From: Candidatus Goldiibacteriota bacterium HGW-Goldbacteria-1
Lineage (GTDB): Bacteria; Oederibacteriota; PGYV01
Length of the DNA: 64,000 bases
Assembly: GCA_002839855.1 (NCBI GenBank)
Contig: PGYV01000008.1
Location: forward strand, 1-64,000
Direction of reading: 5' to 3'
Shown here: piece by piece, positions 23,274 to 54,867 of the stretch
Numbering within the stretch: the first letter of the stretch is position 1
How the letters are laid out: each line of letters starts with the position of its first letter
Notes under the pieces: generated by a model
The model's input: only the letters and a program-made list of their open reading frames with translations
Databases searched by the model: none
Told to the model about the DNA's origin: nothing
Program-made: the position numbers and the translations under genes

Positions 23274-23383
23274 GACAAGTGACAGGTTGCAGGTTACAGG
23301 TTACAGGTTACAGGTGACAAGTGACAAGTGACAAGTGACAAGTGACAAGTGACAGGTGACAGGTGACAAGTGACAGGTGACAG
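23274..23383 (+). repeat. Heptamer tandem array (GTGACAR family)
   Basis: The array holds 15 complete 7-bp units plus five bases, starting at the base after the hisF stop. The units are variants of GACAAGT, GACAGGT and TACAGGT, and like variants are clustered in runs (for example five GACAAGT in a row). There are no spacers, so it is not CRISPR-like. It has no obvious coding potential and could be a length-variable locus. Confidence 0.95.
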
Positions 23384-27032: not shown

Positions 27033-28916
27033 ATGAAAAAAACAATATTATGTCTTGCAGTTATGTTATTACCTGTAATTATTTTTGCGGAAGAGGTACT
27101 TACATCGAAAACTGATGTTACTCCGGAAGTTACGGCAGAAGTTGTGCAGACTCCGCCGGCTACACCGCCGGCCACAACGCCGGCCACAACGCCGGCTACA
27201 CCGCCGGCCACAACGCCGGCCACAACGCCGGCCACAACGCCGGCCACAACGCCGGCTACACCGCCGGCCACAACGCCGGCCACAACGCCGGCTACACCGC
27301 CGGCCACACCGCCGGCCACAACGCCGGTTGTTGTGAAAACGCCGGAGGTTCAAACACAGGGTATTAAGCCGGTTAATCTTATTTTTGATGACACACAGCC
27401 GTATAAACTTAAACTATCCTGGGACGCGCAGATAAAAGACGGGGTAAATTACAACGTTTACAGAAAAAATAACGGTGATAATTATGAAAAAATAAATCCA
27501 ACGCCTTTTTCCGGAACCGCGTATACGGATATAACGGTACAGCCGGGCGGTAATTATACGTATAAGGTTCAGGCTGTTAAGGATGAAAAAGAAAAAAAGG
27601 AATCAGCGGAATTAAATGTAACTCTTAAGGAAATGGAAAAAATTGTCCCTGATGTGCTTTTGTTTGAAAATCACGATGTTTCAAAGGCTGTTGTCAGATG
27701 GACGCCGTTAAAAGACGGCCTTACATATAATATTTACAGAAAAGAAAAAGAAGGTGCTTTTGTGATGCTTAACGAGGCGCCTTTTACGCAGAGCGAATTT
27801 ACCGATGAAACAATAAGGCCCGGCGCCGAATATGCATACAAACTTGAAGCGCTGGATGAAAGCGGATTTAAAAGTTTGTCGGCGGAAAATATTTTTAAAG
27901 CCGCGGAAGTAACCCCTGCGGGAAAACCTTTAAACTTCAGGGCGTATCAGGATGTGGAGCGTATTATTCTTAAATGGGAAACGCCCATAAAAGGTTCTTT
28001 TGAAATAGCCGGATATAATATTTACAGAAGCACAAGCCCCACAGGGCCGCAGATGTATAAATTTGTTGAGGCGAAAAAAAATTCTTTTAATGATGAAGAT
28101 GTAAAAGGCGGAATAAAATATTATTACTTTGTTAAAGCAAAGGATGTAAAGGAAAATGAATCAGAACAGACAGCTACTGAGCCTTGTATTGCTTTTCCCG
28201 GGCCAAGGACCGGGCTTATACTTATGCCGACGGCTTTCAGAAATGACATTTTTGATAACTTTGGGGTAAACGCGGATATGGCGTTTTCTTATTATATAGG
28301 TTCTATCTACGGAGAACACGACATAAACCTGCGTAAAGGCAATGATTCGTTTACCAAGATAGGCGTGTGGCTTTTATCCGCGGACATACGTCTTACCGCC
28401 CTTAACGAAACCGCAAATATCCCTTCGGTGGGTGTGGGTTACACGTATTCCATAATGCTTCAGGACAGCATAGGCAGTTCCGACACAACCGGCGTGGGGG
28501 TTACAATCGGCAGCAATGACAGGGATTCCTTAAAGTCCATGATGGGCACATACGCGGTGGTAAGCAAGGAATTATTCTGGGATTTTACTTTTCATACGGG
28601 ATATATATTGGGTGATTACGCTTCTTTTATACCTTATCTTACGCGCTATGCCGATACGGACAGAAGAAATTTTAATTCTTATTTCGTGGGTTTTGGGCGG
28701 CCGCTTTTTTCAAAAATGGGAGTGGAAGTGGAATATGTGGTACCGGCAAATATTAACAAGAACCCCTTTCTGCCGGATACATATCTTATAAATACCCATA
28801 TAGACAGGTTTATAAATTTTGATGTGGCGTACCTGAAATACCCGGGCGGATATGCCTGGTTGGGTTACATTAATTTCAGGTTTACAATTTTCCCTAATCC
28901 TTATAAGGTTCAGTAG
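27033..28916 (+). CDS. Secreted PATTP-repeat / triple FN3 / beta-barrel-like protein
   Basis: The protein has 627 residues from ATG 27033 (AAGGTG upstream), with signal peptide MKKTILCLAVMLLPVIIFA. Residues about 40-98 are a low-complexity Pro-Ala-Thr linker. Three fibronectin type III-like modules follow (about 112-198, 202-291 and 292-386), each with a YNVYRKNNGDNYEKI-like strand and YTYKVQAV/YAYKLEAL/YYYFVKAK. The last 240 residues are aromatic-rich alternating strands (LLSADIRLTALNE, GVGYTYSIMLQD, FYFVGFGRPLF-like, WLGYINFRFTIF) consistent with an outer-membrane barrel. It may be a surface protein that carries its FN3 arms outside; the order linker-FN3-barrel is inferred by eye. It starts 11 bases after trpG. 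Confidence 0.75.
   Translation: MKKTILCLAVMLLPVIIFAEEVLTSKTDVTPEVTAEVVQTPPATPPATTPATTPATPPATTPATTPATTPATTPATPPATTPATTPATPPATPPATTPVVVKTPEVQTQGIKPVNLIFDDTQPYKLKLSWDAQIKDGVNYNVYRKNNGDNYEKINPTPFSGTAYTDITVQPGGNYTYKVQAVKDEKEKKESAELNVTLKEMEKIVPDVLLFENHDVSKAVVRWTPLKDGLTYNIYRKEKEGAFVMLNEAPFTQSEFTDETIRPGAEYAYKLEALDESGFKSLSAENIFKAAEVTPAGKPLNFRAYQDVERIILKWETPIKGSFEIAGYNIYRSTSPTGPQMYKFVEAKKNSFNDEDVKGGIKYYYFVKAKDVKENESEQTATEPCIAFPGPRTGLILMPTAFRNDIFDNFGVNADMAFSYYIGSIYGEHDINLRKGNDSFTKIGVWLLSADIRLTALNETANIPSVGVGYTYSIMLQDSIGSSDTTGVGVTIGSNDRDSLKSMMGTYAVVSKELFWDFTFHTGYILGDYASFIPYLTRYADTDRRNFNSYFVGFGRPLFSKMGVEVEYVVPANINKNPFLPDTYLINTHIDRFINFDVAYLKYPGGYAWLGYINFRFTIFPNPYKVQ
27155..27327 (+). repeat. 12-bp coding tandem repeat (Pro-Ala-Thr-Pro/Thr)
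   Basis: About 14 units of CCGGCCACAACG or CCGGCTACACCG encode the PATTP/PATPP linker. Unlike the TETx array at the window start, units are nearly identical at the nucleotide level, which suggests recent slippage or recombination. The open frames on other strands here (Arg-rich) are by-products of the repeat. Confidence 0.93.
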
Positions 28917-37736: not shown

Positions 37737-37773
37737 TTTGTAGGGACAGCGCTCCCGCGCTGTCCGTGTTTTT
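37737..37773. terminator. Hairpin terminator after purF, a short copy of palindrome family D
   Basis: GGACAGCGC-TCCC-GCGCTGTCC followed by GTG and T5 can terminate the pur operon. The preceding TTTGTAGGGACAGCG and following CGCTGTCCG are the same ends as the 30381 and 60832 elements, so it seems to be a collapsed repeat reused as a terminator. The rest of the gap to 37957 is AT-rich and holds nothing I recognise. Confidence 0.7.
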
Positions 37774-37957: not shown

Positions 37958-38584
37958 TTAAAAACTGTGACTATATCCCAGTGTAAGTATATTAACGGTG
38001 TTGTCAGGGAGATAAGAAATGCGGTAGTTAATAAATATTCCTCCCCAATCAAAATCCATGCTTGTATATAAACCCAGTACAAAAAGTCTTATAGCTATAT
38101 AAGGTTTGTCATACTTAATAGTATCAGAATAGAACATTGTATTGTCTGCGTCATCATAGTATTTATCTATATCTGTTTTACTTTCGAAGAAGATATAATT
38201 TGGTCCATAAGACGGGCTTACTTTAAGAAAGTCAAAAAACACAAAAGTATATCCCACAGAAGGAATAATACTGAAAAAACTGTTTTGTGTTTCGGTTTTT
38301 ATTGTAAAATTCGGGGGTGAATATTCCAGGTAAGGCCTTGGTAGTGATGCGTTCCAGGACTTGTGTTTTTTGATAAAATTATAACTTAATGAAAAATCTA
38401 TAAACAAATTTTTATTTTCTTGGAAGTAGTGTCTGTAAGAAATGCCATTAAAAACACCCAATATGTTTGTTGATATCTCATTACTATCCGGCAGTATTAA
38501 GCCGGATTCTATTGAAAAACTGTTATTAGCATATACCCGTGTAAATGCTGTAAATAATAATAAAATAAAGATTATATTTTTCAT
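37958..38584 (-). CDS. Small outer-membrane beta-barrel-like protein
   Basis: The 208-residue protein has a signal peptide (MKNIIFILLLFTAFTRVYA) and alternating strands, such as NLFIDFSLSYNFIKK, SFFSIIPSVGYTFVFFDFLKVSPSYG and IFINYRISYLP. It ends LGYSHSF with the terminal phenylalanine of barrel insertion signals. It is divergent from the lipoprotein gene, 59 bases away, so the promoters must be packed in that gap; a TATGAT-like -10 is visible on the minus strand. The gene is much more AT-rich than the pur operon. The family is unknown. Confidence 0.72.
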   Translation of the reverse strand: MKNIIFILLLFTAFTRVYANNSFSIESGLILPDSNEISTNILGVFNGISYRHYFQENKNLFIDFSLSYNFIKKHKSWNASLPRPYLEYSPPNFTIKTETQNSFFSIIPSVGYTFVFFDFLKVSPSYGPNYIFFESKTDIDKYYDDADNTMFYSDTIKYDKPYIAIRLFVLGLYTSMDFDWGGIFINYRISYLPDNTVNILTLGYSHSF

Positions 38585-38643: not shown

Positions 38644-41460
38644 ATGAAACTAAAATTATTTCTATATATTATTTTTATTCCTTTGATTTTAGGTGGGTGT
38701 TTTGATACTCAGGGTGTGCCTCCAGATTATCCTTTTGGTCAAGAATTATGGAACTTTGAAGATAATGGTATATGTAGGTCTGATGGGTATATTTCTGTTT
38801 CTTATAATATCTTCACTGGATCAGGCTTTTGTGGTGAAAAATTATTATTGGAGAATGATACTGATATTAAATTAGATTGTGGTATTCAGGTTGATCTACC
38901 AGGGAATACGGAAAATCAGAGTTGTATTGAATGCAATAGAGAGACAAATTATTTTTCGGATTCTTATAGAGAAGAAAACATGAATTCAACGTTTCCTGAT
39001 AGGATTGGTAAATTAAGGATATTTATTAAACCAGTCAACGAACCTGGTGGTTGGAATCCCACAACTACTGTTTATAAAGATTTTGATATTGCAATGCCGT
39101 TTAAAATGAGCGATCCACCGGAATCGAATAATTTCGCTTGGAGTCGTGCGTTAAAAATACCAATTGATCCAGCCTGGAAATTTGATGATAAAGATGAGCT
39201 GACAGTTTATATTCGATTTGCTATAGAACGACAAGATAGATTGTCTCAAATCTATAAGTGTCAATATTTGGGTCTGTTAAATTGGCAATGCATATCTTGG
39301 AAAGCGCATAAAAGAGATTATAAATACATTGAGCAAATGATTACTTTAAAGAAGAATGTAAGTGATTGTATTGAACCGGCGAAATTACCTTATTGTTCTC
39401 CTTTGATATATTCAACACCAAATCCTACACTTACAGCTGTTTATGTTATGACCGTATCTGCATATAACACAATGGTTTCAGTTCGTGATACCCAAACTGC
39501 GACCGCCCGATTATCTTATACACCTACCCCGACTTTTGATTCTGATGAATATATACAAGGTGAAATAAATGCCACAAAAACTGCAATTGCAGAGCAATCG
39601 GAGCAAACATATTTAAATGCAACAGAAACGATGATTCAAGAAGTTTTTGAATCTATGAGAGCAACTCAAACAGAGGTTGTACAGGCGACAGAAACTGCAT
39701 TAGCGAATGCTACAATGACAGTAACTATTACAGATAGTGATTATTTTTATGTTGAATATTTTCCAGAAAACGCGAATGATTTTGTTAAAGTTCATTATAT
39801 GTTGTACAATGCTGCAAGCGAGGTGAAGGTACAAATAAAGAGCGGGGAAACGGTAGTTCTTGAAAAAACTGATTTAAGCAAAGCCATTGGTGAAAATATT
39901 TGGACATGGGATTTTAAAAATAATGAAGGCGTTATAGTAAAACCATGGGAATATGAATTAGTAGTATTTGTTAATGGTTTGCCGATTCAAAGTATTGAAG
40001 ATACCCCCTGCCGCATAGGTGTTTTCAATAATAATGAGTTTAATGTTGAATTCAAAACGGAGAAAAGTTCTTTTGCGGTTGAGTGTACTCCTGTAGATAA
40101 TTCGGACGTATTTAGAAATCCTTATCCGGGTCCACAACATCAGTCGAAATATATGGGTGGTTTTAAAAGTAATTTTCTAGGAACTGATCTTTACTATCCT
40201 TCAAGAATAAAAAAAATATATTACAAAGATGATAATTCTCTAGTGCTATTTAATTCGGAAAATGCTGAGGAAGTGACGGTTAATTCATTTATGTATTTGG
40301 GATATACTACGACATCATATTCAATTGCGGTTCAACAGCTGCAAAGAATGCTTAATATTGTTTTGACTAGTTATAGAAATTATATTGGTGAAGGTGTTTT
40401 TGATTATACTAGAATTAAACAAGATGGATTATGGGGAAATGATTTGAATTCTGCTGTTGAAAAGTACATACAGTATCGTAGAATTATTAAGCGTGATCTT
40501 GCGTTTGGGGAATATTCAAATGTAACGGATGATATTTTACATATGTATCATAATTTAGGTCCGCTTTCTCCTCAATTGGTTACTGATTATTATAGAAAGT
40601 ATGTTGTTAATTCTGCATTTCTGGAAGTGTTAATGGAAGAAGCTAAGATTTATGATAACATAACTCCGTTTGATCCCGAATATGATGGAATGGCTTTTCG
40701 AGATAGTTTATTTGATTTAATTGATTCATTAAGTGCAGATTTTTCGATTAGGCCTGAAAGTATTGAAGTTAATATGTTTGCTGCTTTTTTAAAAGCGATT
40801 ATTCAAAAAGAATCGTATTTTATTCATATGAGAAGTTGTGGGGAAATCACATTTTCGGCTACTAAAGCAAGAGGGTATGGGCAGCTTACTGATGTGGCTA
40901 TTACGGATGACAGAGGGAAAACGAAAGATTATTTAGAAGAACCAGTTGGAGAGAAAGTATATCAATCACAAATTAATCTTGGTTTTACGGCAAGGTTTTT
41001 AGCACAGATGATTGATGACACGTATTATTCTTTTCCAAGTAGTACATATAATCTAGATAGTTTTAAAAGAATTAAATTAGCAGCAGCTTTTTATAATACT
41101 GGAATGGGTTATGTTGTAACGAATGGATTCAGTATTTTCAAGTATTTAGGTATTGATACTCCTGCGGAATTCGCGTCATCGAAATATAGTAACGATGTGG
41201 AAAAGGTGGTTGAAGCGGCAATTACTAAAATGACAAATGCCAATAAAACGACTGTTTCAAAAGTGGTAGGTACAAGGACATATACGATAAAGCTAAGTAA
41301 ATTGCAAGAGTTGAGGAGTTACTTAAATGCGATTTTTATTAATGAGACCAGATATTTGGGCGATACAAGCATAAGTTATAATGGTTATTATGGTTATTAT
41401 CTTTCAAATTCTGATGATACGACTTTTAAAAATACATATTTTGGGAGGATTGCAAATTGA
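38644..41460 (+). CDS. Lipoprotein with peptidoglycan-binding-like and lytic-transglycosylase-like domains
   Basis: The 938-residue protein begins MKLKLFLYIIFIPLILGGC, a signal peptide with an LGGC lipobox, so it is lipid-anchored. Residues about 255-360 are a Thr/Ala-rich linker with TPTPT and ATETA-type motifs. A FlgD-like Ig module (about 365-460) has WTWDFKNNEGVIVKPWEYELVVFV. At about 555-610, VQQLQRMLN...RIKQDGLWGNDLNSAVEKYIQY looks like a peptidoglycan-binding domain. At about 705-830, FLKAIIQKESYF, ARGYGQLTDVA, NLGFTARFLAQMI and AAFYNTGMGY follow the SLT motif order (catalytic Glu in KES). It may locally open peptidoglycan for the giant protein that follows. Composition is AT-rich. Confidence 0.72.
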   Translation: MKLKLFLYIIFIPLILGGCFDTQGVPPDYPFGQELWNFEDNGICRSDGYISVSYNIFTGSGFCGEKLLLENDTDIKLDCGIQVDLPGNTENQSCIECNRETNYFSDSYREENMNSTFPDRIGKLRIFIKPVNEPGGWNPTTTVYKDFDIAMPFKMSDPPESNNFAWSRALKIPIDPAWKFDDKDELTVYIRFAIERQDRLSQIYKCQYLGLLNWQCISWKAHKRDYKYIEQMITLKKNVSDCIEPAKLPYCSPLIYSTPNPTLTAVYVMTVSAYNTMVSVRDTQTATARLSYTPTPTFDSDEYIQGEINATKTAIAEQSEQTYLNATETMIQEVFESMRATQTEVVQATETALANATMTVTITDSDYFYVEYFPENANDFVKVHYMLYNAASEVKVQIKSGETVVLEKTDLSKAIGENIWTWDFKNNEGVIVKPWEYELVVFVNGLPIQSIEDTPCRIGVFNNNEFNVEFKTEKSSFAVECTPVDNSDVFRNPYPGPQHQSKYMGGFKSNFLGTDLYYPSRIKKIYYKDDNSLVLFNSENAEEVTVNSFMYLGYTTTSYSIAVQQLQRMLNIVLTSYRNYIGEGVFDYTRIKQDGLWGNDLNSAVEKYIQYRRIIKRDLAFGEYSNVTDDILHMYHNLGPLSPQLVTDYYRKYVVNSAFLEVLMEEAKIYDNITPFDPEYDGMAFRDSLFDLIDSLSADFSIRPESIEVNMFAAFLKAIIQKESYFIHMRSCGEITFSATKARGYGQLTDVAITDDRGKTKDYLEEPVGEKVYQSQINLGFTARFLAQMIDDTYYSFPSSTYNLDSFKRIKLAAAFYNTGMGYVVTNGFSIFKYLGIDTPAEFASSKYSNDVEKVVEAAITKMTNANKTTVSKVVGTRTYTIKLSKLQELRSYLNAIFINETRYLGDTSISYNGYYGYYLSNSDDTTFKNTYFGRIAN

Positions 41461-42356
41461 AGAAAATATATATGTTGTTATTTATGTTTGTGTTAACTTG
41501 TAATCTGATTGCAAATAAAACTATTTCGAGTCAAGATAATCAGGTAATCATCAGGGAAGATTTAAATCAAGATAGTGTAATAGAATCAATAGTTCAACCT
41601 GTTTCTGTTCATGATAAAGCTCAAATAAAATATTTAGATAAAAACAATGTAGAAAAGATTATTGAAAGGGATATTGCTGAACTAAATGGACAAGAAACTG
41701 ATGGTGTTGTTGAATATATAAATGTGATAGGACCAAGTGATAAAAAAAGTGTTATTTATTGTGGTAACTTGTACAGGGTCCACGAAGAACGTGATTATTT
41801 GGCTGGTTTTTTTGTGACTATTTACAAGTTTAATGGAACGGATTTTCGTCGTGTATATGAAGCGAATGTAGATTATAGTATTGATGTTAGCAAGCTGAAG
41901 AGGGTACAGAAGAGTTCAAAAGGCGGGTTAACGGAAAAGGATTCAATTAAATTTGTATTAGTAGATCAAAAAAAAATGTATCTACTTGTTCAAGGTGATG
42001 TAAATGCATATGTTTTTGATGAAGGTGGTTTAATTAAAACTATTAAACTGCAAAAAAACACTGATGAAATAGATTCGTTTGTTTATATAAAAAAAGATGA
42101 TGAGATTAAACTTATTATAAAGAAATTTGGGATGAATAAAATTAAGATTTGGTCGTCAAAGACAAATACAATTGTAGACTATTTTACAATAGAATCAGAA
42201 GAACCTATAAGTACTTTTATGGGTTATGATACAAATGATGAAATCATGGTGCGTGTTAAAAAAGGACTTGAATACAGGATGAAAAAAATTAAATATGACA
42301 AAATTCAAAAAAAGATTAATGAAATTTCAGAGGAAAAGTATGAAAAAGTTTATTAA
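41457..42356 (+). CDS. Secreted protein of unknown function
   Basis: The 299-residue protein starts at TTG 41457, overlapping the previous stop (TTGA), with GGGAGG upstream. A signal peptide (MKKIYMLLFMFVLTCNLIA) is followed by a strand-rich protein with DLNQDSVIESIVQPV, VIYCGNLYRVHEERDYLAGFFVTIYKFNGTDFRRVYEANV and repeated short strands, reminiscent of a small beta propeller. No catalytic motif is evident. It is AT-rich like the lipoprotein gene. It overlaps the giant gene by 17 bases, so the three genes are one operon. Confidence 0.68.
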   Translation: MKKIYMLLFMFVLTCNLIANKTISSQDNQVIIREDLNQDSVIESIVQPVSVHDKAQIKYLDKNNVEKIIERDIAELNGQETDGVVEYINVIGPSDKKSVIYCGNLYRVHEERDYLAGFFVTIYKFNGTDFRRVYEANVDYSIDVSKLKRVQKSSKGGLTEKDSIKFVLVDQKKMYLLVQGDVNAYVFDEGGLIKTIKLQKNTDEIDSFVYIKKDDEIKLIIKKFGMNKIKIWSSKTNTIVDYFTIESEEPISTFMGYDTNDEIMVRVKKGLEYRMKKIKYDKIQKKINEISEEKYEKVY

Positions 42357-45300
42357 AATAGTATTTTTACTTATTATTGGTATTTTTTTAATGAATTCAT
42401 TTGCATTCGCGGAAATGCAAAGAATGAAATATGACGGTAAAGAATTATATATAGATAATTTAAAATGCATAAAAGAATTTAAAAATATTCTTTTTAATGG
42501 TATACAAGATGTTGCTGTGGTTAAAGTAAATGGAGATCCTTTGGATGACGCTACAGGTAATGAAACGTCATCAATACCCACCGCTTTTGCTTTGGATAGA
42601 ACGGGTTATGTTATTTGGAGTTCATTCAATGATAAAGATGATAAATTTAAATTTGATGTAACTAATGTTAAAATGGTATTTCCGCAAGGTATGGCGTGTG
42701 ATGCCACGGATAAACTTATTGTTACAGATACGTATAATGATAGACTATTAGAATTTACAATATCGATTAAGAGAGATGAGAGTGACAATAAAGTTGGAAT
42801 AAAATTGGAACAAACTGCAATTTATGGCAGTACTGGAATAAATTTAGGTGCTTTTGATAGACCGTGGGGTGTTTGTTATGATTACGATGGAAATATTTAT
42901 GTAACAGATGTAAATAATTTTAGAATTCAGAAATATAATAAAGATAATTCTACGTGGTATTCTTTTGGTGAGGGAAAAGGAAAAGGAAATTTTAAATTTA
43001 AATTTATTAGCGATGTTGCTGTCGATAGGAATGGTAATATTTTTGTTTGTGATAATGGTAATAACAGGATTGTAAAGTATGATGCTAATTTTAACTATCT
43101 TGGTGAAACTCAAGGTGTTGACGGGGCAGGTAATGTTTTAAATAAAGGATATAACAAATTGGATGTCGATAATTATGGTAACGTATATGCGATAGTGTCT
43201 TCGAAGGGAATGGTATATGTTTTGGGAAATAATCTTACTGGTATTTCCGAATCGTTTCAATATACGACTGCGAAATCGGTAGCTGTCTGTAAAAAAACAA
43301 ATAGAATAATTATTGCGGGCGAAATGCAAGGGCACATATATAAGATTGGTGCTACAATAAAAAACGCATTTCTTTCTTTTAATACTATTTGGTCAAAAAC
43401 AAACGGTAGTGAGTATTATAGCAATGATTCGAAAATTAATTTTGATGTTACAACTCCGGGTGGTGTTTTAACAATAAAAACGTATCGATTAGGAGATTTA
43501 ACGTCAGGAGTTGTTAATTTTTTTTCTTCGTTATTTATTCAACCACCTCAAATAAAGAAAAGTGAAAGTTTTGGTTTCGTAACTTCTAATAATTATACGA
43601 TGAGTGTTTTACCTTTTGACCAAGAGGGGGTAAAGTATCCTGAGGGTTTATATTCTTGCAGTGTGAATATAGAAGATAGTATTTTTCCTAACATGTCTAA
43701 TAATGAAATATTAAGTTTTAAAATTATTTATGATGATATTCCGCCTGTTGTTAAAAACATATATATATTTGATAGGGAAGCGGTAGATGAAAGAAACGGC
43801 TATATTTTTATTCGTTCGGACGCCAGATTTGGAATACAAGCTATTGACGAGGACAATTTTTCTAATACGAGAGGGTACATAACGAATAATGGTTCTGGAA
43901 TTAAACAGTATCAGTATTGTGTGGGAAGTGGTACAAATTGGAGTGAATGGAGAAACGTTTCGAAAAAAGAAGCTAAATTTAGTTTGCGGGATACGGATGG
44001 AAGTTATGGGATAAATAATATAGTGTATTTGAAATGTCGTGCGATAGATAATGTTGACAATATTGGCGTGGAATATCAATATGAAAAACCGATTCATATC
44101 GGATGGGAAAAAATTAATAATTTCTGGGCGGATGGGGTTTATAAGGTAAGTGATACGGAAATTTGGTTTCGTGGCGGGAATATTAATAAATTTAAAGATA
44201 ATAGGGAAAATAAAAACGTAAAATTAAAGGATGTTTATCCCTATAATTTGTATGACGATGTAATGAGATATAATGGAAAAGAATTTGAATTTATAGCACT
44301 TGATGAGGCTAAGATTCTACCCGAAAATATTATTGGTTACAGGTCAGGCGTTGATCCGGGCGATGATGGATTCTTTGATTATGATATTTGTGTTCCTAAA
44401 TCCCGTTTTGTAGTTGGTTTGGACAAGTATGTTTTTGGTCCTTTGAGTTATTGGGATAAAAGGGGGACGGTAAAAAACTATTCTAAGTATACGGAAATAA
44501 TGAAAACTAATAATGGGCATCTTCATGATGACCAATTCTCAATGGATGCGGCTCTTAATATTTACGACGCCGTGTATCCATATAAAGCTTTTATTGTAGG
44601 TACTGACGGTAACATATATGGCGTTGATGAAAACTATAATGTAAGTTCCCCGCTACATTCGTTTGGTACGCAGTTAACCAAAATTAAAATCGGTGAAAAC
44701 GGATTGTATTATGTTTTATCAACAGATAAAAAAATATATAGAAATAACGCTGTAAATGATTTGGTTAATTGGACGCAAATAAATCCGGATACAGCCTATA
44801 ATTCCATACTTACTGATTGTCATTTTTTTTCTGACGGTTCGGGATGGGTTCTGGGTCAGAGCGGTATTATTGGATTTTATGACGGTGCTGTCTGGGATTT
44901 TTCTTATTCCAAGGTATGGCCAAGCAATGTTACGATGAATTGTATTTATATGAAGGATAAAGATACAGGATGGATAGCCGCAGGGGGAGGAAGGCTTTTT
45001 CAGTGGAATCATAATACAAAAATCTGGGATGAAACAATTCCGTGGCCTGATTTTACCGGAAATTATACTTTTGTTGTTGCTGACAAAAATACCCTTTGGA
45101 TTGGCGGCGCTGTAGCGGCAGAATTTAACATGGAAATTAGTAAAATTTTTGAGCCGGCAATACTGTTAAAGAGCACAATTGGTAAAGAATATATACCTGT
45201 CAAAAGGCCGGTTGGATTGGAAGTTGTTTCAAGACCAAATAGCATAATGCTTTCATGGAAGCCGGGGGAAAATGGCGAAGATTATCAAATTATTGGTTAC

Positions 45301-48300
45301 AATGTTTACAGGGGAGAATATGACAATAATGCAGGGCTTAAAAATGCCGGTTATGAAAAATTAAAATATTTACCCGGCAACTCGTTAAACTATACAGATA
45401 CCGGCGCAGATAAACCGTTAGACCCAAATAAACAATATTTTTATGCGGTAAGCGCAGTCTATGGTAATGATGGAGTAATAAAAGGTGAAACGTATTATTC
45501 CAATGAAGGTTTTGGAACTCCCAAGGGCTCTTCGTGGAAAAGCGCGGGCACGGACTTATATCCGATGTGGAACTTTACTTACAGGGGAACAAATCAAATA
45601 GCGGAAACTTTTAACGGAACAAAATCCATACACGATAAATTTTTTGCGGGTAATATTTATTTCATGAAGTATAGCGAGTATTCAGGAATGTGGGAAAATG
45701 CCAATATCCCGCATCCATATACCACGGATATAACAGATGTCGTATTTGACAGTTTATCTGCAAGCGCAACCGGCATGCCGTATATGTTTGATGTGGCGTC
45801 AAATGGTAAGGCTTACGCTGCTGATATTAATTTAAGGGATAATGTTTGGGAATATGATGGAAGTGTATGGAGGCTAATATCACCTTCAAGCAGAATTATA
45901 ATGCCCGGAACTTCAAAAAACATAATAAAAGATATCCGTACGCCGGGTGAATCTTTGTGGTTATCGCTAAATTCCATGAATGGCAAAGCTGCCGCAAAAA
46001 ATCTTGGGGCGTTGGGTTTTGCGATATTTGACGGTGTTGATTCCGCGACAGCAAGCGGTATTTTAAAAATGAAAAGTGACACATATGGCTGGACAACAAA
46101 GGGAGTGCTTGATAATGGTTCTTTTAACGCGTTTCCGGCCCGGCCTTCTACTAATATAGTTTATTATATTGCCCCTTATGCCGGTTCTTATTCTTCGAAT
46201 TTTGATTTATACAGCAGGGTTTATCCTGAAAAAAACGGTTCAGTTTATAATTTATTCTGTTCTACTGATTTTTTAAGAAGTGGAACTCCACAAAAATTAG
46301 GTTATGGTATTTCAAAATGGAACGGGGAAAAATGGAATTTTCAGTATATAGAGCCTCATCTTAGTTCATATGAAAATTTAAGTTCTGGCTACAGCAGAAT
46401 TGCTGATTTTGCGTTCCGTTCATCCACGGATGGATATGCCCTGATAAGGCGTATGAATTCAGGTGTTACAGAGGCTGAATCATCGGCTGTTTTGCAGTAT
46501 AACGGTACAGGCTGGAGCAGGTCAGAACTTCCCGGAGACCTTGATGTATACAGCACAAATATAGAAGGTAATAACGCAAAAGATTTTATAGCTGCAGAAT
46601 ACGGGCAGATACTGGAAAGGGACAGGGTAATGGTGACTGTTACACCGCCATTAACGCCCGGTGTTACTGTTTATAGCACTCCTCAGCCCACCGGATATGT
46701 TCATTTAGTCTGGCAAGCTGTGTTAAATACAGGCAGCGAAATAAACGGATACAACATATACAGAAAATATGACAATGAAGATTTTATTTATGTGGGCACA
46801 ACTGATAAGAACACAACAGAATTTTCAGATTATCGTTTTATGACGGTAAAAGGCGACTATACTTACAAAATTACCGCTTTTGACAGATTTGGTAATGAAA
46901 GCGAAGCGTCACAGGCACTACCCGTGAATATAGGTTATTTATATACCCCGACTTCTACGCCTTCTGTCATATTCACGCAGACGTTTACACCAACATATAC
47001 AGCAACACCGGCAAATGTTGCATGGGCTCAATACGGGCATGACACAAAACATACGTTTAAAAGTAATTATGCGGGTTATGCGCCGGCCGCGCCCACTGCG
47101 GTTACCGGAGTTAATGTTGCGCTTAATTTCTATGCTCCTGACAATATCGGCGACATTGTTGCGGATAAATCAGGAAATATATATTTTCATACAACGGATG
47201 AACAGCAGAATTATATATTCAGAATAAGCGCAGCCGGGGAAATGGATTATGTTATTACAAGAAACGGCACGAATTCCGGAATAGGCCTTTCAGAGAATGG
47301 AAACCTGTATTATTCAGTTTTTGACCCGTATCCGTCACCCACAACAGGGCTTACATCCTATGCCGGTTTACACGCAATGGATGCTATTTCCGGCGAAAAC
47401 AGATGGAACATAAGCAATGACTGGTTCTCTGACCATATGCAGCCGGGGGATGGTGTGCTGTATGCGTATTCAAGAAGCAACGGAATAAGAAAAATAAGTG
47501 ACAATGTTACATCGGCAACGCCTATATGGAGCGCGGGAAGGGCATTGTGCCAGCGGATGACCGGTAATAATGCGGCAATAGATGGCGAAGGAAATGTATA
47601 TTTTACGGAACCTGTCAGTGTATCAGGATGTTTAAGTCAGAGCGGAATAAAGGTTGTGAAATATAATTCCGCGGGCGATAAAATTAGCGAAGTTTCAATA
47701 GAGCAGACGGGAAAAACTTTTGAATATGAAAATTCAGAAATTCTTATTGATGACCAGAATTTATCCGGCAATTCCCTTTATGTGCGTGTAATTGATAACA
47801 GCAATAAAATATATTATGTGGTTATAAATACGGCTTTAAGCGCAATCAGCAAATTTATTGATACGGGCTTAATATATTCGGGCAGCAGCAGATATCCGCT
47901 GGGTGCTATAGGGAATAAAGCAAGCGCCCGTGGATTGTATTATCTTGCAAAGTATAATGCAAAAAATACCGTTATGTTCTATTCGGCGGGAACGTCAAAC
48001 CCTGTGGCAATAGGAACAACAGGGACATACCTTGGTACTGATGATATTTATTATTCCGATATGATACTTGATAAGAACAATGACATATATATCGGAAATG
48101 AAACAAACATGTATAAGTTTACATCTTTGGGTGCGGTTAAAATGAAGATGGATTGTGTAGGCAACAAAAAGGCCGCAATAATAACGGGAAACAGCAGAGT
48201 TTATTTTGACAATAACCGGCAGATAATAGGATTAGGCAATGGAACGGGTATTTCTCCGCTTCCTACGGCAGTTAACGCGCCTATAACTGCGTGGGTTTCT

Positions 48301-51267
48301 ATTGTTGGAAGTCAGCTGGTTTTAACATGGAACGAAGTGCCGGGCGCTGTAAGTTATAATATTTATAAGGCTGCCAGCCCATATCAGCAGATAAACGCAG
48401 AACCTGTAACCTCAACTTCTTACGAAGTTTCAGATCTTGAATCCGGCGCATTGTATTACTTCCTTATCACATCGGTTGATGAATATGAACGCGAAAGCAA
48501 TATTTCAAATGAAATGCAAGTTATATACGGTACCGCGACTATAACTCCTACAGTGACACCCACAATTACGCCTACGCCGTATCCCACAACCGGTACACAT
48601 AAACTGGACTTAAAAGTGGCAAACGCGCAGGCTGATAATGACTGCAGCGCGAATGGAAGCACAAGCAAAGAAGCGCATTTTGATTTTAAGATAGTCAATA
48701 ATGACAGTGTGGCTGTTAACATTAATACGCTTAAGGTGAAAATGTGGTTTAAAGATACCAGAAATGTCGAACAAAATGGCTTTTATGGCGGTGAATTAAA
48801 GGATGCTTCGGGCAACTGGATAGCCAATGTAAGCGGTTATGTAAGCGTTAATAACTCATCTCCGTCGCCTGAATGTTCAATAGAATCAGGCAGATATGCA
48901 TCCAAAACCGCCGTTTTAATATTTACCACGGATTATAATCTTCCGGCAAACGGCGGGTACGCCAACAGCCTTGACGGTAAACTATATTTAAATACATGGC
49001 ATGATCCTTTTGATTCCGGTTGTGACGATTATTCCAGGCTTGGTACATCAAATATATATGCCGATGACACGCATTTTGCGTTGTACGAAAATGATATTCT
49101 GGTGACAGAATGGTCCAACTCATCTGGATATGACATCAACACGGGAAAAGAACCGTGCTTGCCGCCTACGGCGACAATAACCGCAACATTCAGCGCAACG
49201 CCTACAGTGACAGAAACAATTTACGCAAGCTCAACGCTTACAAATACAATATCACCGACATCCACCGATACCCCTGTTTTAACAGAGACTCCGACATTTA
49301 CTGTTTCACCTACAGGTACCGATACCCCAACAGAAACTATTACGCCAAGCGTAACAGAAACAGATACTGAAACGTCCACGGCAACGGTTACAGAAACTAC
49401 AACTGAAACCGCGACCGAAACAAATACGCAGACAGTAACTGAAACGGTAACTGATACGCCTTTTGTGACTGCAACCCCTACTGCTACTGTAACAGAGACG
49501 GCAACGCCGTATGAAGGACTGTCAGAAGCGGTTGATAATTCAAATCTGGAAATATTTACAGGCGGCCATGCCGGCTGGTTTAAAGATACACAGGAATATA
49601 ATTATGACGGTGACAGCGCGAAAAGCGGCATAATAACTCATCAGCAGAGATCTGTCATGCAGACAGAAGTTACGGGTTATGCTAAAGTTACCTTCATGTG
49701 GAAAGTTTCTTCTGAATCCGCTTATGATTATTTGGTATTCAGTGTTGATGATACGGTAATTCACAGTATAAGCGGAAATGTAAATTGGAAAGAGGAAGTC
49801 TGCGAAATTTCCGCAGGCCCGCACACGCTTAAGTGGGAATACATAAAAGACGGAAGCGTAAATTACGGAGAAGATTGCGGATGGGTTGACAGGGTGCAAA
49901 TAATACAAACAACACCGACGGCAACATATACAATAACAGAGACGCGTACAGAAACTCCAATAGTCACAGAAACACCGACATCCACATTGACAGCCACGCA
50001 GACAATGACGGAAACCGTAACAGAGACTTCTACTGAAACAAACACGGCTACCATAACAGAAACCGCTGTGGATACTCCGTTCTGTACTGAAACGCCGACA
50101 GCAACTGTAACAAACACAAATACTGAAAGTGCAACTCCAAGCATTACACAGACGCCTACAGTAACAGGTACGGCAACTGTGACTTCAACGGCGGTGCTTG
50201 ACAGTTATGAACCGGATAACAGCTATAGCAGCGCTAAAACGATACAGCCGCAGGAAACGCAGGTAAGAAGTATCGCGCCTGCCGGCGATTCGGATATTGC
50301 AAAGTTTACGCTTACAGCTGATTCCAATGTTGTAATTGAAACAAGCGGCAATTTAAGTTCAGATACCGCAATGTGGCTGTATCAGGAAATTTCGGGGGAA
50401 GAAATAAACCTGATAGCTTTTGATGATGATAACGGGACCGGAAGATATTCAATGATTGCCACAGTGCTTGAGCCCGGAACATATTACATAAAAGTGGAAA
50501 AATACGGCAATGATGAAGATATATATGAATATTATCTTAAGTTGAATGCTTCTGCGGTGCCGACAGCAACGCCTACAATAACCATTACCGGCACAAATAC
50601 CGGAACGCCTACAGGAACGTGTACAATGACAGGTACGCCCACCGGTACGGCTACAGAGACTGCAACGCCTTCTATGACAGGAACGTGCACTATTACAGTT
50701 ACTTATACACAGACTCCCACAGAGACGGCAACACCTTCAATAACGCAGACCCACACGGCAAGCCCGACAGTCACGGCAACGGTATGCCTGAACCTGAATG
50801 TCACTTACAGGGCTGCGGATATTAATGACAATACAAATTCTCCGCTGCCGCAGTTTATGATAATAAATAACAGCCCTAATGCAATAGATATCAATAAGAT
50901 ACAGGTAAAGTACTGGTATAGGTTTGAAGGGACGGGAACAGAAACGTCTTATGTCAATTCTGTATTAAGAAGCGGAACTCACATTGAAGGTGATACAACG
51001 TGTACAATAATAAGCGGCAGTTATCCTTTACAGCAGGACAGATATCTGTTGGTATCGTTTGGGACGCAGGCGGGCAGTCTGGGAAATGGCGCACAGGATT
51101 ATCTTGAAATCAATGCGCAGTTTCATACAGATACATGGAGCTCGTATAACCAAATTAATGACTATAGTTTCTTAAATTCCTCGGCATATACGGCAAATTA
51201 CCATTTAACTGTTTATTATGATGGGCAGCTTGTTTGGGGACAGGAACCAGAGGACAGCCCGCTGTAG
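42340..51267 (+). CDS. 2975-residue modular secreted protein: propellers, FN3, Thr-rich linkers, CBM3-like and PPC domains
   Basis: I start it at ATG 42340 (AGAGGA upstream) with signal peptide MKKFIKIVFLLIIGIFLMNSFAFA. By eye, in order: NHL-type propeller (about 60-340; WGVCYDYDGNIYVTDVNNFRI), Ig-like region (467-585), BNR/YCF48-like repeats (740-930; GSGWVLGQSG, DTGWIAAGGG), FN3 (953-1047), second propeller-like region (1067-1427), FN3 (1447-1532), PQQ-like region (1560-1970; AWAQYGHDTKHTF), FN3 (1975-2060), CBM3-like (2086-2272), jelly-roll-like (2391-2522), PPC (2620-2740; DSYEPDNSYSSA) and CBM3-like (2816-2975). TPT/TETx linkers join the last modules. CBM3 domains bind cellulose or chitin, so an adhesin or polysaccharide-binding surface protein is likely; no catalytic domain was found. 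The 5' third is AT-rich, the rest matches the genome. Confidence 0.82.
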   Translation: MKKFIKIVFLLIIGIFLMNSFAFAEMQRMKYDGKELYIDNLKCIKEFKNILFNGIQDVAVVKVNGDPLDDATGNETSSIPTAFALDRTGYVIWSSFNDKDDKFKFDVTNVKMVFPQGMACDATDKLIVTDTYNDRLLEFTISIKRDESDNKVGIKLEQTAIYGSTGINLGAFDRPWGVCYDYDGNIYVTDVNNFRIQKYNKDNSTWYSFGEGKGKGNFKFKFISDVAVDRNGNIFVCDNGNNRIVKYDANFNYLGETQGVDGAGNVLNKGYNKLDVDNYGNVYAIVSSKGMVYVLGNNLTGISESFQYTTAKSVAVCKKTNRIIIAGEMQGHIYKIGATIKNAFLSFNTIWSKTNGSEYYSNDSKINFDVTTPGGVLTIKTYRLGDLTSGVVNFFSSLFIQPPQIKKSESFGFVTSNNYTMSVLPFDQEGVKYPEGLYSCSVNIEDSIFPNMSNNEILSFKIIYDDIPPVVKNIYIFDREAVDERNGYIFIRSDARFGIQAIDEDNFSNTRGYITNNGSGIKQYQYCVGSGTNWSEWRNVSKKEAKFSLRDTDGSYGINNIVYLKCRAIDNVDNIGVEYQYEKPIHIGWEKINNFWADGVYKVSDTEIWFRGGNINKFKDNRENKNVKLKDVYPYNLYDDVMRYNGKEFEFIALDEAKILPENIIGYRSGVDPGDDGFFDYDICVPKSRFVVGLDKYVFGPLSYWDKRGTVKNYSKYTEIMKTNNGHLHDDQFSMDAALNIYDAVYPYKAFIVGTDGNIYGVDENYNVSSPLHSFGTQLTKIKIGENGLYYVLSTDKKIYRNNAVNDLVNWTQINPDTAYNSILTDCHFFSDGSGWVLGQSGIIGFYDGAVWDFSYSKVWPSNVTMNCIYMKDKDTGWIAAGGGRLFQWNHNTKIWDETIPWPDFTGNYTFVVADKNTLWIGGAVAAEFNMEISKIFEPAILLKSTIGKEYIPVKRPVGLEVVSRPNSIMLSWKPGENGEDYQIIGYNVYRGEYDNNAGLKNAGYEKLKYLPGNSLNYTDTGADKPLDPNKQYFYAVSAVYGNDGVIKGETYYSNEGFGTPKGSSWKSAGTDLYPMWNFTYRGTNQIAETFNGTKSIHDKFFAGNIYFMKYSEYSGMWENANIPHPYTTDITDVVFDSLSASATGMPYMFDVASNGKAYAADINLRDNVWEYDGSVWRLISPSSRIIMPGTSKNIIKDIRTPGESLWLSLNSMNGKAAAKNLGALGFAIFDGVDSATASGILKMKSDTYGWTTKGVLDNGSFNAFPARPSTNIVYYIAPYAGSYSSNFDLYSRVYPEKNGSVYNLFCSTDFLRSGTPQKLGYGISKWNGEKWNFQYIEPHLSSYENLSSGYSRIADFAFRSSTDGYALIRRMNSGVTEAESSAVLQYNGTGWSRSELPGDLDVYSTNIEGNNAKDFIAAEYGQILERDRVMVTVTPPLTPGVTVYSTPQPTGYVHLVWQAVLNTGSEINGYNIYRKYDNEDFIYVGTTDKNTTEFSDYRFMTVKGDYTYKITAFDRFGNESEASQALPVNIGYLYTPTSTPSVIFTQTFTPTYTATPANVAWAQYGHDTKHTFKSNYAGYAPAAPTAVTGVNVALNFYAPDNIGDIVADKSGNIYFHTTDEQQNYIFRISAAGEMDYVITRNGTNSGIGLSENGNLYYSVFDPYPSPTTGLTSYAGLHAMDAISGENRWNISNDWFSDHMQPGDGVLYAYSRSNGIRKISDNVTSATPIWSAGRALCQRMTGNNAAIDGEGNVYFTEPVSVSGCLSQSGIKVVKYNSAGDKISEVSIEQTGKTFEYENSEILIDDQNLSGNSLYVRVIDNSNKIYYVVINTALSAISKFIDTGLIYSGSSRYPLGAIGNKASARGLYYLAKYNAKNTVMFYSAGTSNPVAIGTTGTYLGTDDIYYSDMILDKNNDIYIGNETNMYKFTSLGAVKMKMDCVGNKKAAIITGNSRVYFDNNRQIIGLGNGTGISPLPTAVNAPITAWVSIVGSQLVLTWNEVPGAVSYNIYKAASPYQQINAEPVTSTSYEVSDLESGALYYFLITSVDEYERESNISNEMQVIYGTATITPTVTPTITPTPYPTTGTHKLDLKVANAQADNDCSANGSTSKEAHFDFKIVNNDSVAVNINTLKVKMWFKDTRNVEQNGFYGGELKDASGNWIANVSGYVSVNNSSPSPECSIESGRYASKTAVLIFTTDYNLPANGGYANSLDGKLYLNTWHDPFDSGCDDYSRLGTSNIYADDTHFALYENDILVTEWSNSSGYDINTGKEPCLPPTATITATFSATPTVTETIYASSTLTNTISPTSTDTPVLTETPTFTVSPTGTDTPTETITPSVTETDTETSTATVTETTTETATETNTQTVTETVTDTPFVTATPTATVTETATPYEGLSEAVDNSNLEIFTGGHAGWFKDTQEYNYDGDSAKSGIITHQQRSVMQTEVTGYAKVTFMWKVSSESAYDYLVFSVDDTVIHSISGNVNWKEEVCEISAGPHTLKWEYIKDGSVNYGEDCGWVDRVQIIQTTPTATYTITETRTETPIVTETPTSTLTATQTMTETVTETSTETNTATITETAVDTPFCTETPTATVTNTNTESATPSITQTPTVTGTATVTSTAVLDSYEPDNSYSSAKTIQPQETQVRSIAPAGDSDIAKFTLTADSNVVIETSGNLSSDTAMWLYQEISGEEINLIAFDDDNGTGRYSMIATVLEPGTYYIKVEKYGNDEDIYEYYLKLNASAVPTATPTITITGTNTGTPTGTCTMTGTPTGTATETATPSMTGTCTITVTYTQTPTETATPSITQTHTASPTVTATVCLNLNVTYRAADINDNTNSPLPQFMIINNSPNAIDINKIQVKYWYRFEGTGTETSYVNSVLRSGTHIEGDTTCTIISGSYPLQQDRYLLVSFGTQAGSLGNGAQDYLEINAQFHTDTWSSYNQINDYSFLNSSAYTANYHLTVYYDGQLVWGQEPEDSPL

Positions 51268-51322
51268 TGAAGATGTTTGTTATAAAAAAAGTTTGTGAAT
51301 ACTATAAAAACAGAGGTAATAA

Positions 51323-51982
51323 ATGAAAAAAATCAGCATGATAATTATTGGGGTAATAATCTTTTCTGTTTCTGTTTATGCAGATAAGAAAGCAGAAAAC
51401 GTCATGGCGAAAGCATTTGAAAGCATGACGCAGATACAGAATGTTGAAGCCATAGCGGTTACTGAAATTAAGAATGAAAAAAACGGCAGTGTGAAAGTGG
51501 AAGCGTTGGAAGCTAAAAAAGTGACTGTAATAAAACCATACCAAAAGATAATAAAAAAACTGGATTATACGACTAAAACAGAACTGCCCGGGCAGGATAC
51601 AGCCGGAGCAGACTTAATACCTGCCGCGCAGGAACAAAAGTATCTGTATCCCAAATGTCTTTTTGGGATGCAGGAATACTTTGAAAACTTTGATTTTGCG
51701 CTTTTTGACAAAGACGAAAGGATTAAACAGGGCAAAGAAGAAGTTATTGCGATAAAGAAAGGGCAGGAAACGGAATATCCGCAGATAAGAATAACAGTAA
51801 ATGGAAATGATGTTGAAATGATGAAATTCTTTGCCATGGACGGAAAGAAATATTATGAACTTATTGTGGATAAGACAGAAAAAATAAAAGCCATAAATGT
51901 TCCTGTTGAAATGACAGAAAAGTTTTATACCAACAACGGGACAATGATTAATGTGCTAAAATATGAAAATATAAATTTTTAA
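51323..51982 (+). CDS. LolA-like periplasmic protein
   Basis: The 219-residue protein has a signal peptide (MKKISMIIIGVIIFSVSVYA). ADKKAENVMAKAFESMTQIQNVEAIAVTEI, then KKVTVIKPYQKIIKKLDY and a late MMKFFAMDGKKYYELIVDKTEKIKAINVPVEMTEKF give the layout of LolA/LolB-fold lipoprotein carriers or outer-membrane lipoprotein-sorting proteins. It lies 55 bases after the giant gene with an AGAGGT ribosome binding site. It may handle the lipoprotein of this locus, but sequence similarity to true LolA is weak and the function is inferred. Confidence 0.6.
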   Translation: MKKISMIIIGVIIFSVSVYADKKAENVMAKAFESMTQIQNVEAIAVTEIKNEKNGSVKVEALEAKKVTVIKPYQKIIKKLDYTTKTELPGQDTAGADLIPAAQEQKYLYPKCLFGMQEYFENFDFALFDKDERIKQGKEEVIAIKKGQETEYPQIRITVNGNDVEMMKFFAMDGKKYYELIVDKTEKIKAINVPVEMTEKFYTNNGTMINVLKYENINF

Positions 51983-52163: not shown

Positions 52164-52192
52164 TTGTAATAAAAAATCCCAAATTGTATAAT
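52164..52192 (+). promoter_or_regulatory. Candidate promoter upstream of the aromatic operon
   Basis: TTGTAA (52164-52169) and TATAAT (52187-52192) have a 17-base spacer. Transcription would begin in or just before the first palindrome (52197-52227), so this promoter may be blocked or attenuated by it. The rest of the 51983-52326 gap holds the two palindromes and a short open stretch without a start codon. Confidence 0.5.
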
Positions 52193-52196
52193 AAAG

Positions 52197-52227
52197 AGCC
52201 TTGTGAAATCGTTTCACAAGGCTTTTT
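52197..52227 (+). terminator. Perfect-stem terminator containing a Rex-box-like palindrome
   Basis: AGCC plus TTGTGAAA-TCG-TTTCACAA plus GGCT forms an uninterrupted 12-bp stem followed by T5. It fits a rho-independent terminator. Its inner 19 bp recur at 52252-52270 with one base changed in the centre, so it may also, or instead, be an operator. Confidence 0.7.
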
Positions 52228-52249
52228 GCCTTATTATACAAGCAGTTTT

Positions 52250-54456: not shown

Positions 54457-54576
54457 GCAGCTAGGCAGCTAGGCAGCTAGGCAGCTAGGCAGCTAGGCAG
54501 CTAGGCAGCTAGGCGGATAGGCGGATAGGCGGATAGGCGGATAGGCGGATAGGCGGATAGGCGGATAGGCGGATAG
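54457..54576 (+). repeat. Two-block octamer tandem array (7 x GCAGCTAG, 8 x GCGGATAG)
   Basis: Seven perfect GCAGCTAG units (54457-54512) switch without a break to eight perfect GCGGATAG units (54513-54576). There is no spacer and no coding frame. It begins 5 bases after the aroF stop. It is the clearest of three octamer-type arrays in this spacer. Confidence 0.97.
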
Positions 54577-54584
54577 GTCTGGTA

Positions 54585-54867
54585 CTGGTAGGCGCACCTT
54601 TTAAGGTGCGGTTGTAGCGAGCCTGTGAGCGGAAATCCCGGCAATGAAGCGAATGTATGAGCGAAAGTAGGCGGGACAGTTGGTGTTGATTTTGATTTTA
54701 AAAAAATATAAACAACGCACCCTAAAGGGTGCGGCTACCAAGGCTAAATCTAATAAAGAGATAGCAAGAGCGAATTATAAGAACGGTTCTGGTAGACGCG
54801 GGTCTTTAGCCCGCGGTAGTTGAAATGAAAAATATAAACAACGCACCCTAAAGGGTGCGGCTACCAA
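54585..54867. repeat. Cluster of four REP-like hairpins (GGTAG...CGCACC type)
   Basis: Copies lie at about 54585-54616, 54702-54741, 54788-54821 and 54828-54867. Copies 2 and 4 are identical over 40 bp, including the AT-rich lead AAAAATATAAACAACG and the hairpin CGCACCCTAAAGGGTGCG followed by GCTACCAA. Copy 1 is in the opposite orientation with CGCACC/GGTGCG. Copy 3 shares the GGTAG end with a different stem (CGCGGG/CCCGCG). They look like REP elements, and some may terminate aroF transcripts. Confidence 0.85.

Follow-up and report, generated by a model that had tools for sequence, protein, structure and literature searches.

The operon at positions 38,644 to 51,982 of the window, by which we denote the whole analysed stretch of 64,000 nucleotides (bases 1-64000 of contig C8, PGYV01000008.1, of Candidatus Goldiibacteriota bacterium HGW-Goldbacteria-1), comprises the genes of a lipoprotein, a secreted protein (the second open reading frame, ORF2), a giant protein and a LolA-like protein, and is likely to be of mosaic structure. 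Our best reading of the sequences is that two modules which circulate separately in the phylum are joined inside the giant gene: module A would consist of the giant's NHL/Ig head together with the lipoprotein and ORF2, module B of the propeller/FN3/CBM3 body of the giant and the LolA-like protein. The more specific view that the locus encodes a head-swapped exported giant with upstream partners specific to the head and a LolA-family partner specific to the tail is advanced tentatively, at a chance slightly below even. The genome of the window (G000) amounts to 2,862,642 bases in 18 contigs, and the comparison set to 45 genomes of the phylum, G007 being an order-level relative and G001 and G002 being congeners. 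Domains were searched with Pfam and NCBIfam; structural comparison relied on PDB sequence search, hhalign, AlphaFold2 (AF2) and Foldseek.

The evidence for a join is found within the giant itself. Its head (residues 20-588) aligns to the giant of G007 (31%, E = 1.7e-55) and not to the paralogous giant of 5651 residues on contig C4 of the window's own genome, to which, in turn, the body (residues 515-2311) aligns (35% over 1905 residues, E = 0), with further separate matches at residues 2394-2520, 2620-2735 and 2806-2970. Beyond the head, the G007 giant shares only the modules at residues 2394-2520 and 2620-2735. The switch of similarity lies in a domain common to both parents (residues 493-588) and coincides with a break in third-position GC content, which amounts to 0.23 in the lipoprotein gene and to 0.21 in both ORF2 and the head, compared to 0.36 in the body as well as in lolA (head versus body, p = 2.6e-10; at fourfold sites 0.26 versus 0.37, p = 0.01). 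In the simplest account, the lipoprotein, ORF2 and head would have arrived as one piece and been joined to a resident pair of body and LolA. Composition supports such a transfer without proving it because a low GC content is frequent among the giants of this genome.

The relatives show the modules apart. G007 harbours, on contig C23, a lipoprotein (1392 residues), ORF2 (340 residues) and a giant (1607 residues) in the order seen in the window, with lipoprotein and ORF2 genes overlapping by 4 nt and conservation between the two loci at 20-35% identity. The search of genome contigs matched the record of G007 only. While the order of the first three genes thus recurs in one order-level relative, the four-gene order does not hold as one unit: in G007 there is neither a LolA-family match nor a CBM3 in the giant, and elsewhere the LolA gene adjoins other giants without lipoprotein and ORF2. 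The C4 giant (locus C4:283000-312000), which carries a clostripain domain (Peptidase_C11, 1.1e-29), CBM3 and a Por_Secre_tail, is followed by a LolA-family gene after 3 nt and preceded by a 311-residue secreted protein and a lipoprotein-like member of the DNA/RNA endonuclease family (Endonuclease_NS, 9.2e-20). In G002, a giant of 2800 residues (G002:C62), in which a Por_Secre_tail accompanies two CBM3 modules, is followed by a LolA-family gene after 4 nt. No lipoprotein or ORF2 was found at these two giant loci. Upstream of the G002 giant (L072:12161-12999, G002:C62), inspection by eye reveals the terminal part of an Rhs-like protein, the tip of which is variable, next to a neighbour of 135 residues, an arrangement resembling polymorphic toxins. 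Taken together, all three LolA-family genes with assembled upstream DNA start 3-55 nt after a giant. G001 has two further LolA-family copies at contig starts (C20, C76), one of them beside hisC as in the window; the assembly breaks at the identical lolA base in both (G001:C20:1 and G001:C76:1) and probably lacks two giant ends which are nearly identical to each other.

The original prediction had put forward, as a coherent but unproven reading, one dedicated system which opens the wall and displays a fibre that binds polysaccharide. Spelled out, the lipoprotein would open the wall, the LolA-like protein would help sorting, the giant would be the fibre, and the four genes would have evolved as a unit. 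The overlapping genes, their common orientation, a terminator located only after lolA and the lipoprotein-ORF2-giant order kept in G007 agree with it. We nevertheless consider it quite improbable: the LolA family is absent from G007 and attached elsewhere to giants which lack the upstream pair, the giant is chimeric with a matching break in composition, and it has no sorting-type tail.

Alternatively, the giant might simply be one of a large class of secreted proteins with Thr-rich linkers which reshuffle rapidly in this phylum, its neighbours being incidental in a variable purF-hisC island and not functionally coupled to it. The three translationally coupled genes, the order kept with G007 at such low identity, the three LolA-family genes directly behind giants and the purifying selection on ORF2 (dN/dS 0.15 for a copy in G001) and LolA (dN/dS 0.07-0.10 between congeners) speak against mere neighbourhood. 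Yet NHL-type matches number at least 35 in the genome and CBM3 modules six, and the four-gene island is absent at the G002 site because only a single 179-residue gene separates purF and hisC there. Furthermore, an isolated stretch of 1.08 kb elsewhere in G001 (C82) comprises the tail of the lipoprotein, an intact ORF2 (94% identical) and the start of the giant, lipoprotein and giant ends being decayed; its surroundings are 92% identical to G000:C9. All in all, this explanation appears rather unlikely. At the site on G000:C9 which corresponds to the ORF2 remnant (L088:9677-10358), a HigBA-like toxin-antitoxin pair and a 329-residue unknown gene are discernible by eye.

As for the lipoprotein, the motifs of lytic transglycosylases and of peptidoglycan binding which the original prediction had noticed stand at the level of motifs, while the corresponding hidden Markov models (HMMs) fail. 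The only full-length homologue found is that of G007:C23 (E = 1.8e-50; 35% over the C-terminal 460 residues), the family occurring in two of the 45 genomes with a remnant of 54 residues in a third. Among the residues invariant between both proteins are the blocks typical of family 1 lytic transglycosylases, namely ES, G(Y)GQ, NL and YNxG. A motif set built from the lytic transglycosylases of E. coli is satisfied by both homologues and by none of 30,000 shuffles; Slt, MltC and EmtA satisfy the whole set and MltD a relaxed version of it, and among about 995 ORF segments the set is otherwise encountered only in copies of these loci and in one true SLT. Alignment with E. coli SLTs by hhalign places the Glu of ES and the Gln of GYGQ in register (P = 0.0014, probability only 18%). 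The assignment to SLT by threshold fails in Pfam as well as in NCBIfam, which gives no SLT match, and in the PDB sequence search with the lipoprotein alignment, which gives none either; likewise, the PG_binding_1 HMM yields no match at E<=10 on residues 519-619, leaving the peptidoglycan-binding region at motif level only. Judged by these motifs, the lipoprotein is a probable, albeit unproven, lytic transglycosylase, and we give the cleavage of peptidoglycan by it about an even chance. Because no canonical SLT was detected in its own genome by a PF01464 search, a housekeeping role as a lytic transglycosylase may also be conceived.

This last point likewise touches the notion of a predation or scavenging locus, in which the lytic transglycosylase, along with the nuclease-family protein and the clostripain giant of the paralogous locus, would digest the biomass of other cells, with CBM3 anchoring them to the substrate. 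The occurrence of the Endonuclease_NS protein and of the Peptidase_C11 giant at equivalent positions on C4 agrees with this. The head of the window giant, however, is made up of non-enzymatic NHL/Ig domains, no secretion route has been identified, and in a genome with no canonical SLT elsewhere the transglycosylase may equally be a housekeeping substitute, so that we regard predation as very unlikely.

The modules which had been proposed for the giant, namely propellers, FN3, PPC and two CBM3-like modules on Thr-rich linkers, are largely borne out: NHL and CBM_3 exceed their cut-offs, PPC remains just below, and fn3_4 is found at 0.004, with Thr-rich linkers at residues ~2300-2390, 2540-2620 and 2750-2810. 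Both copies of CBM_3 (PF00942, 2e-8) pass the HMM threshold (28.7 and 24.5 versus 22.4 bits). According to the PDB search, the second one is related to CBM3a modules over its full length (6d5b, 1e-21; 1nbc, 7.8e-19). In its printed alignment the Trp of DWSNY is kept, Gln stands in place of the Arg of the flat strip, and no conservation is seen in the Asp-His/Tyr segment, where we take the residues of the flat binding strip of CBM3a to be those known from CipA. Since this strip is only partly kept, cellulose as the ligand is not assured. A Pfam search of the giant for cohesin and dockerin gave none, and a reading as cellulosome scaffoldin was rejected for this reason. That the giant is an exported polysaccharide-binding protein seems to us to have a somewhat better than even probability.

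The window giant stops right after its CBM3, whereas the giants of C4 and G002 continue for ~110 residues and end in a Por_Secre_tail (1.2e-7 and 6.3e-8, respectively). No sorting-type tail is found in the window giant, and the 55-nt gap to lolA is too short for a remnant of one. Surface display of this protein, for which no sorting signal speaks, is thus unproven. Tails of the Por_Secre_tail type occur at 17 places in G000; a search of this genome for SprA_N (PF14349) gave no match, and three relatives of the order gave weak partial matches only.

The assignment of the fourth protein as LolA-like is supported by the fold, and profile similarity points the same way. PF17131 (LolA_like) matches all five family members at E<=10 (best 1.2e-4); the window protein alone reaches 12.8 bits against a cut-off of 30 (profiles PF03548/PF17131), and a PDB search with this single sequence found nothing. 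The AF2 model is of moderate quality (predicted template modelling score 0.59) with a poor N-terminal part. It nevertheless displays the open beta half-barrel with capping helix of the superfamily, and Foldseek ranks LolA-superfamily structures at the top (3buu, E = 4.1e-4, as well as 3bk5, P. gingivalis LolA3 and LolB). Membership of the LolA superfamily is therewith supported, as far as the model allows. Because a canonical LolA is encoded elsewhere in the genome (C4:336029), the window protein is an additional paralogue. A LolA-like reading, made by eye, of a 448-residue protein beside ORF2 in G007:C93 received no support from Pfam and was not used.

If the operon is indeed a mosaic with head- and tail-specific partners, the following course may be envisaged. 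The giant would be exported by Sec, and the LolA-family protein would serve in the periplasm as its dedicated carrier or chaperone, the cargo being peculiar to the body or CBM3 end, be it the protein itself or its lipid anchor. The lipoprotein, anchored in the wall-facing membrane, would trim peptidoglycan at the spots at which the giant crosses the wall or is retained, ORF2 would function together with the NHL head, and the extracellular ligand of the CBM3 modules would be cellulose or another polysaccharide. That the LolA-like protein is a dedicated partner of the giant is possible but somewhat doubtful. Going further, a LolA paralogue may have been recruited to work in the periplasm solely for exported giants which are not lipoproteins, as their chaperone, carrier or supplier of an anchor, the heads of these giants being exchanged as operon-sized cassettes along with upstream partners, i.e. 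the transglycosylase lipoprotein plus ORF2 or the nuclease-family protein plus the 311-residue protein; this we deem unlikely. If true, it would constitute a modular export and display system which differs from the established routes of types I, II, V and IX. A LolA-family gene fixed behind such giants would raise the question of what role a LolA fold plays for a non-lipoprotein, and the swap of head and partners suggests a route by which uncultured lineages build new giant surface proteins.

A number of observations weigh against the mosaic operon and the functions assigned to its parts. The sample is small, as module A is known from two genomes and module B from three assembled giants, and AT-richness is common in other giants (0.30-0.35 GC in the C4 giant). 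The pairing of ORF2 with the lipoprotein is not strict, ORF2 being also present without it (G007:C93) and as an isolated remnant (G001:C82). The SLT profile (PF01464) has no match in the lipoprotein, neither in the whole protein at E<=0.01 nor in sub-regions at E<=10, and the AF2 model of its C-terminal 460 residues, calculated from two sequences, is unusable (predicted local distance difference test 31). Finally, since it lacks the sorting-type tail of its paralogues, the window giant may be periplasmic or released.

The four ORFs and their overlaps are as originally described, and purine-rich sequence is present upstream of all four starts (Table 1). At 41457-41460 (TTGA), the TTG start of ORF2 runs into the TGA of the lipoprotein gene, by which ORF2 is translationally coupled to it; the giant starts inside ORF2 with an overlap of 17 nt. 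In the gap between giant and lolA, a scan of the plus strand for terminators revealed no hairpin. ORFs, junctions and terminator placement hence confirm that the first three genes form one overlapping operon, and an envelope-directed operon is supported. The divergent neighbour has no match in Pfam or NCBIfam; at its site, congeners have other AT-rich, small secreted proteins. A dispersed intergenic repeat with the GC hairpin GTAGGGACAGCGCTCCCGCGCTGTCC (positions 1427-1490 of the query) has ~30 matches across G001, while G002 and G005 have several. An origin from a phage or mobile element was dropped, as there was no tRNA, no relative in the viral contig search and no integrase noticed among the locus ORFs listed. 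The Rfam search of the window gave no matches.

Table 1. Features of the operon and its flanks (window positions)
Feature	Position	Strand	Remarks
Dispersed intergenic repeat, GC hairpin GGACAGCGCTCCCGCGCTGTCC	37744..37765	+	terminator scan; marks purF side of island
Divergent neighbour, 208-residue AT-rich secreted protein	37958..38584	-	C-terminal Phe, outer-membrane-barrel-like
Lipoprotein gene	38644..41460	+	ATG start, 938 residues, Cys19 lipobox (LGGC), homologue G007:C23
FlgD_ig-like region (lipoprotein residues 381-440)	39784..39963	+	sub-threshold, 16.8 bits versus cut-off 27
PG_binding_1-like motif region (AVQQLQRM...DGLWG...A)	40321..40479	+	motif invariant between window and G007
Lytic-transglycosylase-like region	40756..41133	+	ES at 723, GYGQ at 744, NLGF at 778, FYNTG at 816
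ORF2	41457..42356	+	299 residues, secreted, fold unknown; homologues G007:C23, G007:C93, G001:C82
Giant gene	42340..51267	+	2975 residues, 329 kDa, signal peptidase I (SPI)-type signal peptide, no lipobox
NHL propeller region of head	42649..43107	+	NHL 2.8e-18; ScyF-like NHL 3.2e-14
Join region (giant residues 493-588)	43816..44103	+	similarity changes from G007 head to C4 body (identity per 40 residues, both parents)
First CBM3-like module	48592..49134 (HMM core 48652-48849)	+	24.5 bits versus cut-off 22.4; weak PDB match 2wnx
Unnamed module (giant residues 2394-2520)	49519..49899	+	common to C4 and G007 giants, 42-43% identity
PPC domain	50287..50499	+	7.5e-5, 24.0 bits, just under cut-off 25.9
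Second CBM3 module	50791..51249	+	C-terminal end of giant; 28.7 bits versus cut-off 22.4; 1nbc 7.8e-19
LolA-superfamily gene	51323..51982	+	219 residues, signal peptide
Intrinsic-terminator-like hairpin	52192..52228	+	17 pairs and T-run, strong; closes operon

Outside the operon, a further giant Thr/Glu-rich protein with 36-base and 132-base tandem repeats and an AT skew of 0.545 crosses the start of the window (54-3410; 1-1978). Short tandem arrays with units of 7/21 and 12 bases lie at 23274-23383 and 27154-27327. An 8-base array (GCAGATAG/GGCGGATA) at 54457-54577 is followed at 54600-54680 by an element of ~70 bases with copies at G001:C82, G000:C4 and G001:C76 (81-85% identity).

Compared to known systems, the lipoprotein resembles the family 1 lytic transglycosylases (Slt70, MltC, EmtA and MltD of E. 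coli; SLT, PF01464) in the ordered ES, GxxQ, N-L/I..G/A..L and YNxG motifs with similar spacing and, as regards anchoring, MltC, MltD and EmtA. It differs from them in falling below all HMM thresholds, in its long N-terminal part with FlgD-Ig- and peptidoglycan-binding-like regions and in sharing an operon with a giant. The second CBM3 corresponds over its full length to those of cellulosomal scaffoldins and glycoside hydrolases (CipA 1nbc, 4jo5; 6d5b; E down to 1e-21), while the giant, unlike CipA-type proteins, contains no glycoside hydrolase, cohesin or dockerin. Multi-modular cellulases known as type IX cargo (PMC5831590) are matched by the C4 and G002 paralogues in the succession of CBM3 and Por_Secre_tail, in contrast to the window giant, which lacks the tail in a genome where SprA_N was not found. 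In cellulose-binding Goldbacteria (Candidatus Cellulosimonas, PMC7031533) CBM3 has been reported, as found in the window giant; that study deals with cellulases and carbohydrate-binding modules and, unlike the locus described here, with no giants or LolA partners. Dedication of a LolA paralogue to a single locus has been proposed in two cases: LolA2/LolB2 of the F. johnsoniae flexirubin operon (Bacteroidota), to its authors' knowledge the first such example (PMC11885536), and BBJ28 in a gene cluster of Borrelia (PMC13078400). As in both, the window encodes an extra LolA-fold protein beside the canonical LolA which is tied to one locus. Unlike in those cases, neither LolB nor an ABC transporter is encoded nearby, and the linkage is to a giant CBM3 non-lipoprotein with an SPI signal peptide; a LolA-family gene fixed behind CBM3 giants would hence be a second, different setting for locus-dedicated LolA paralogues, which are only just being proposed.

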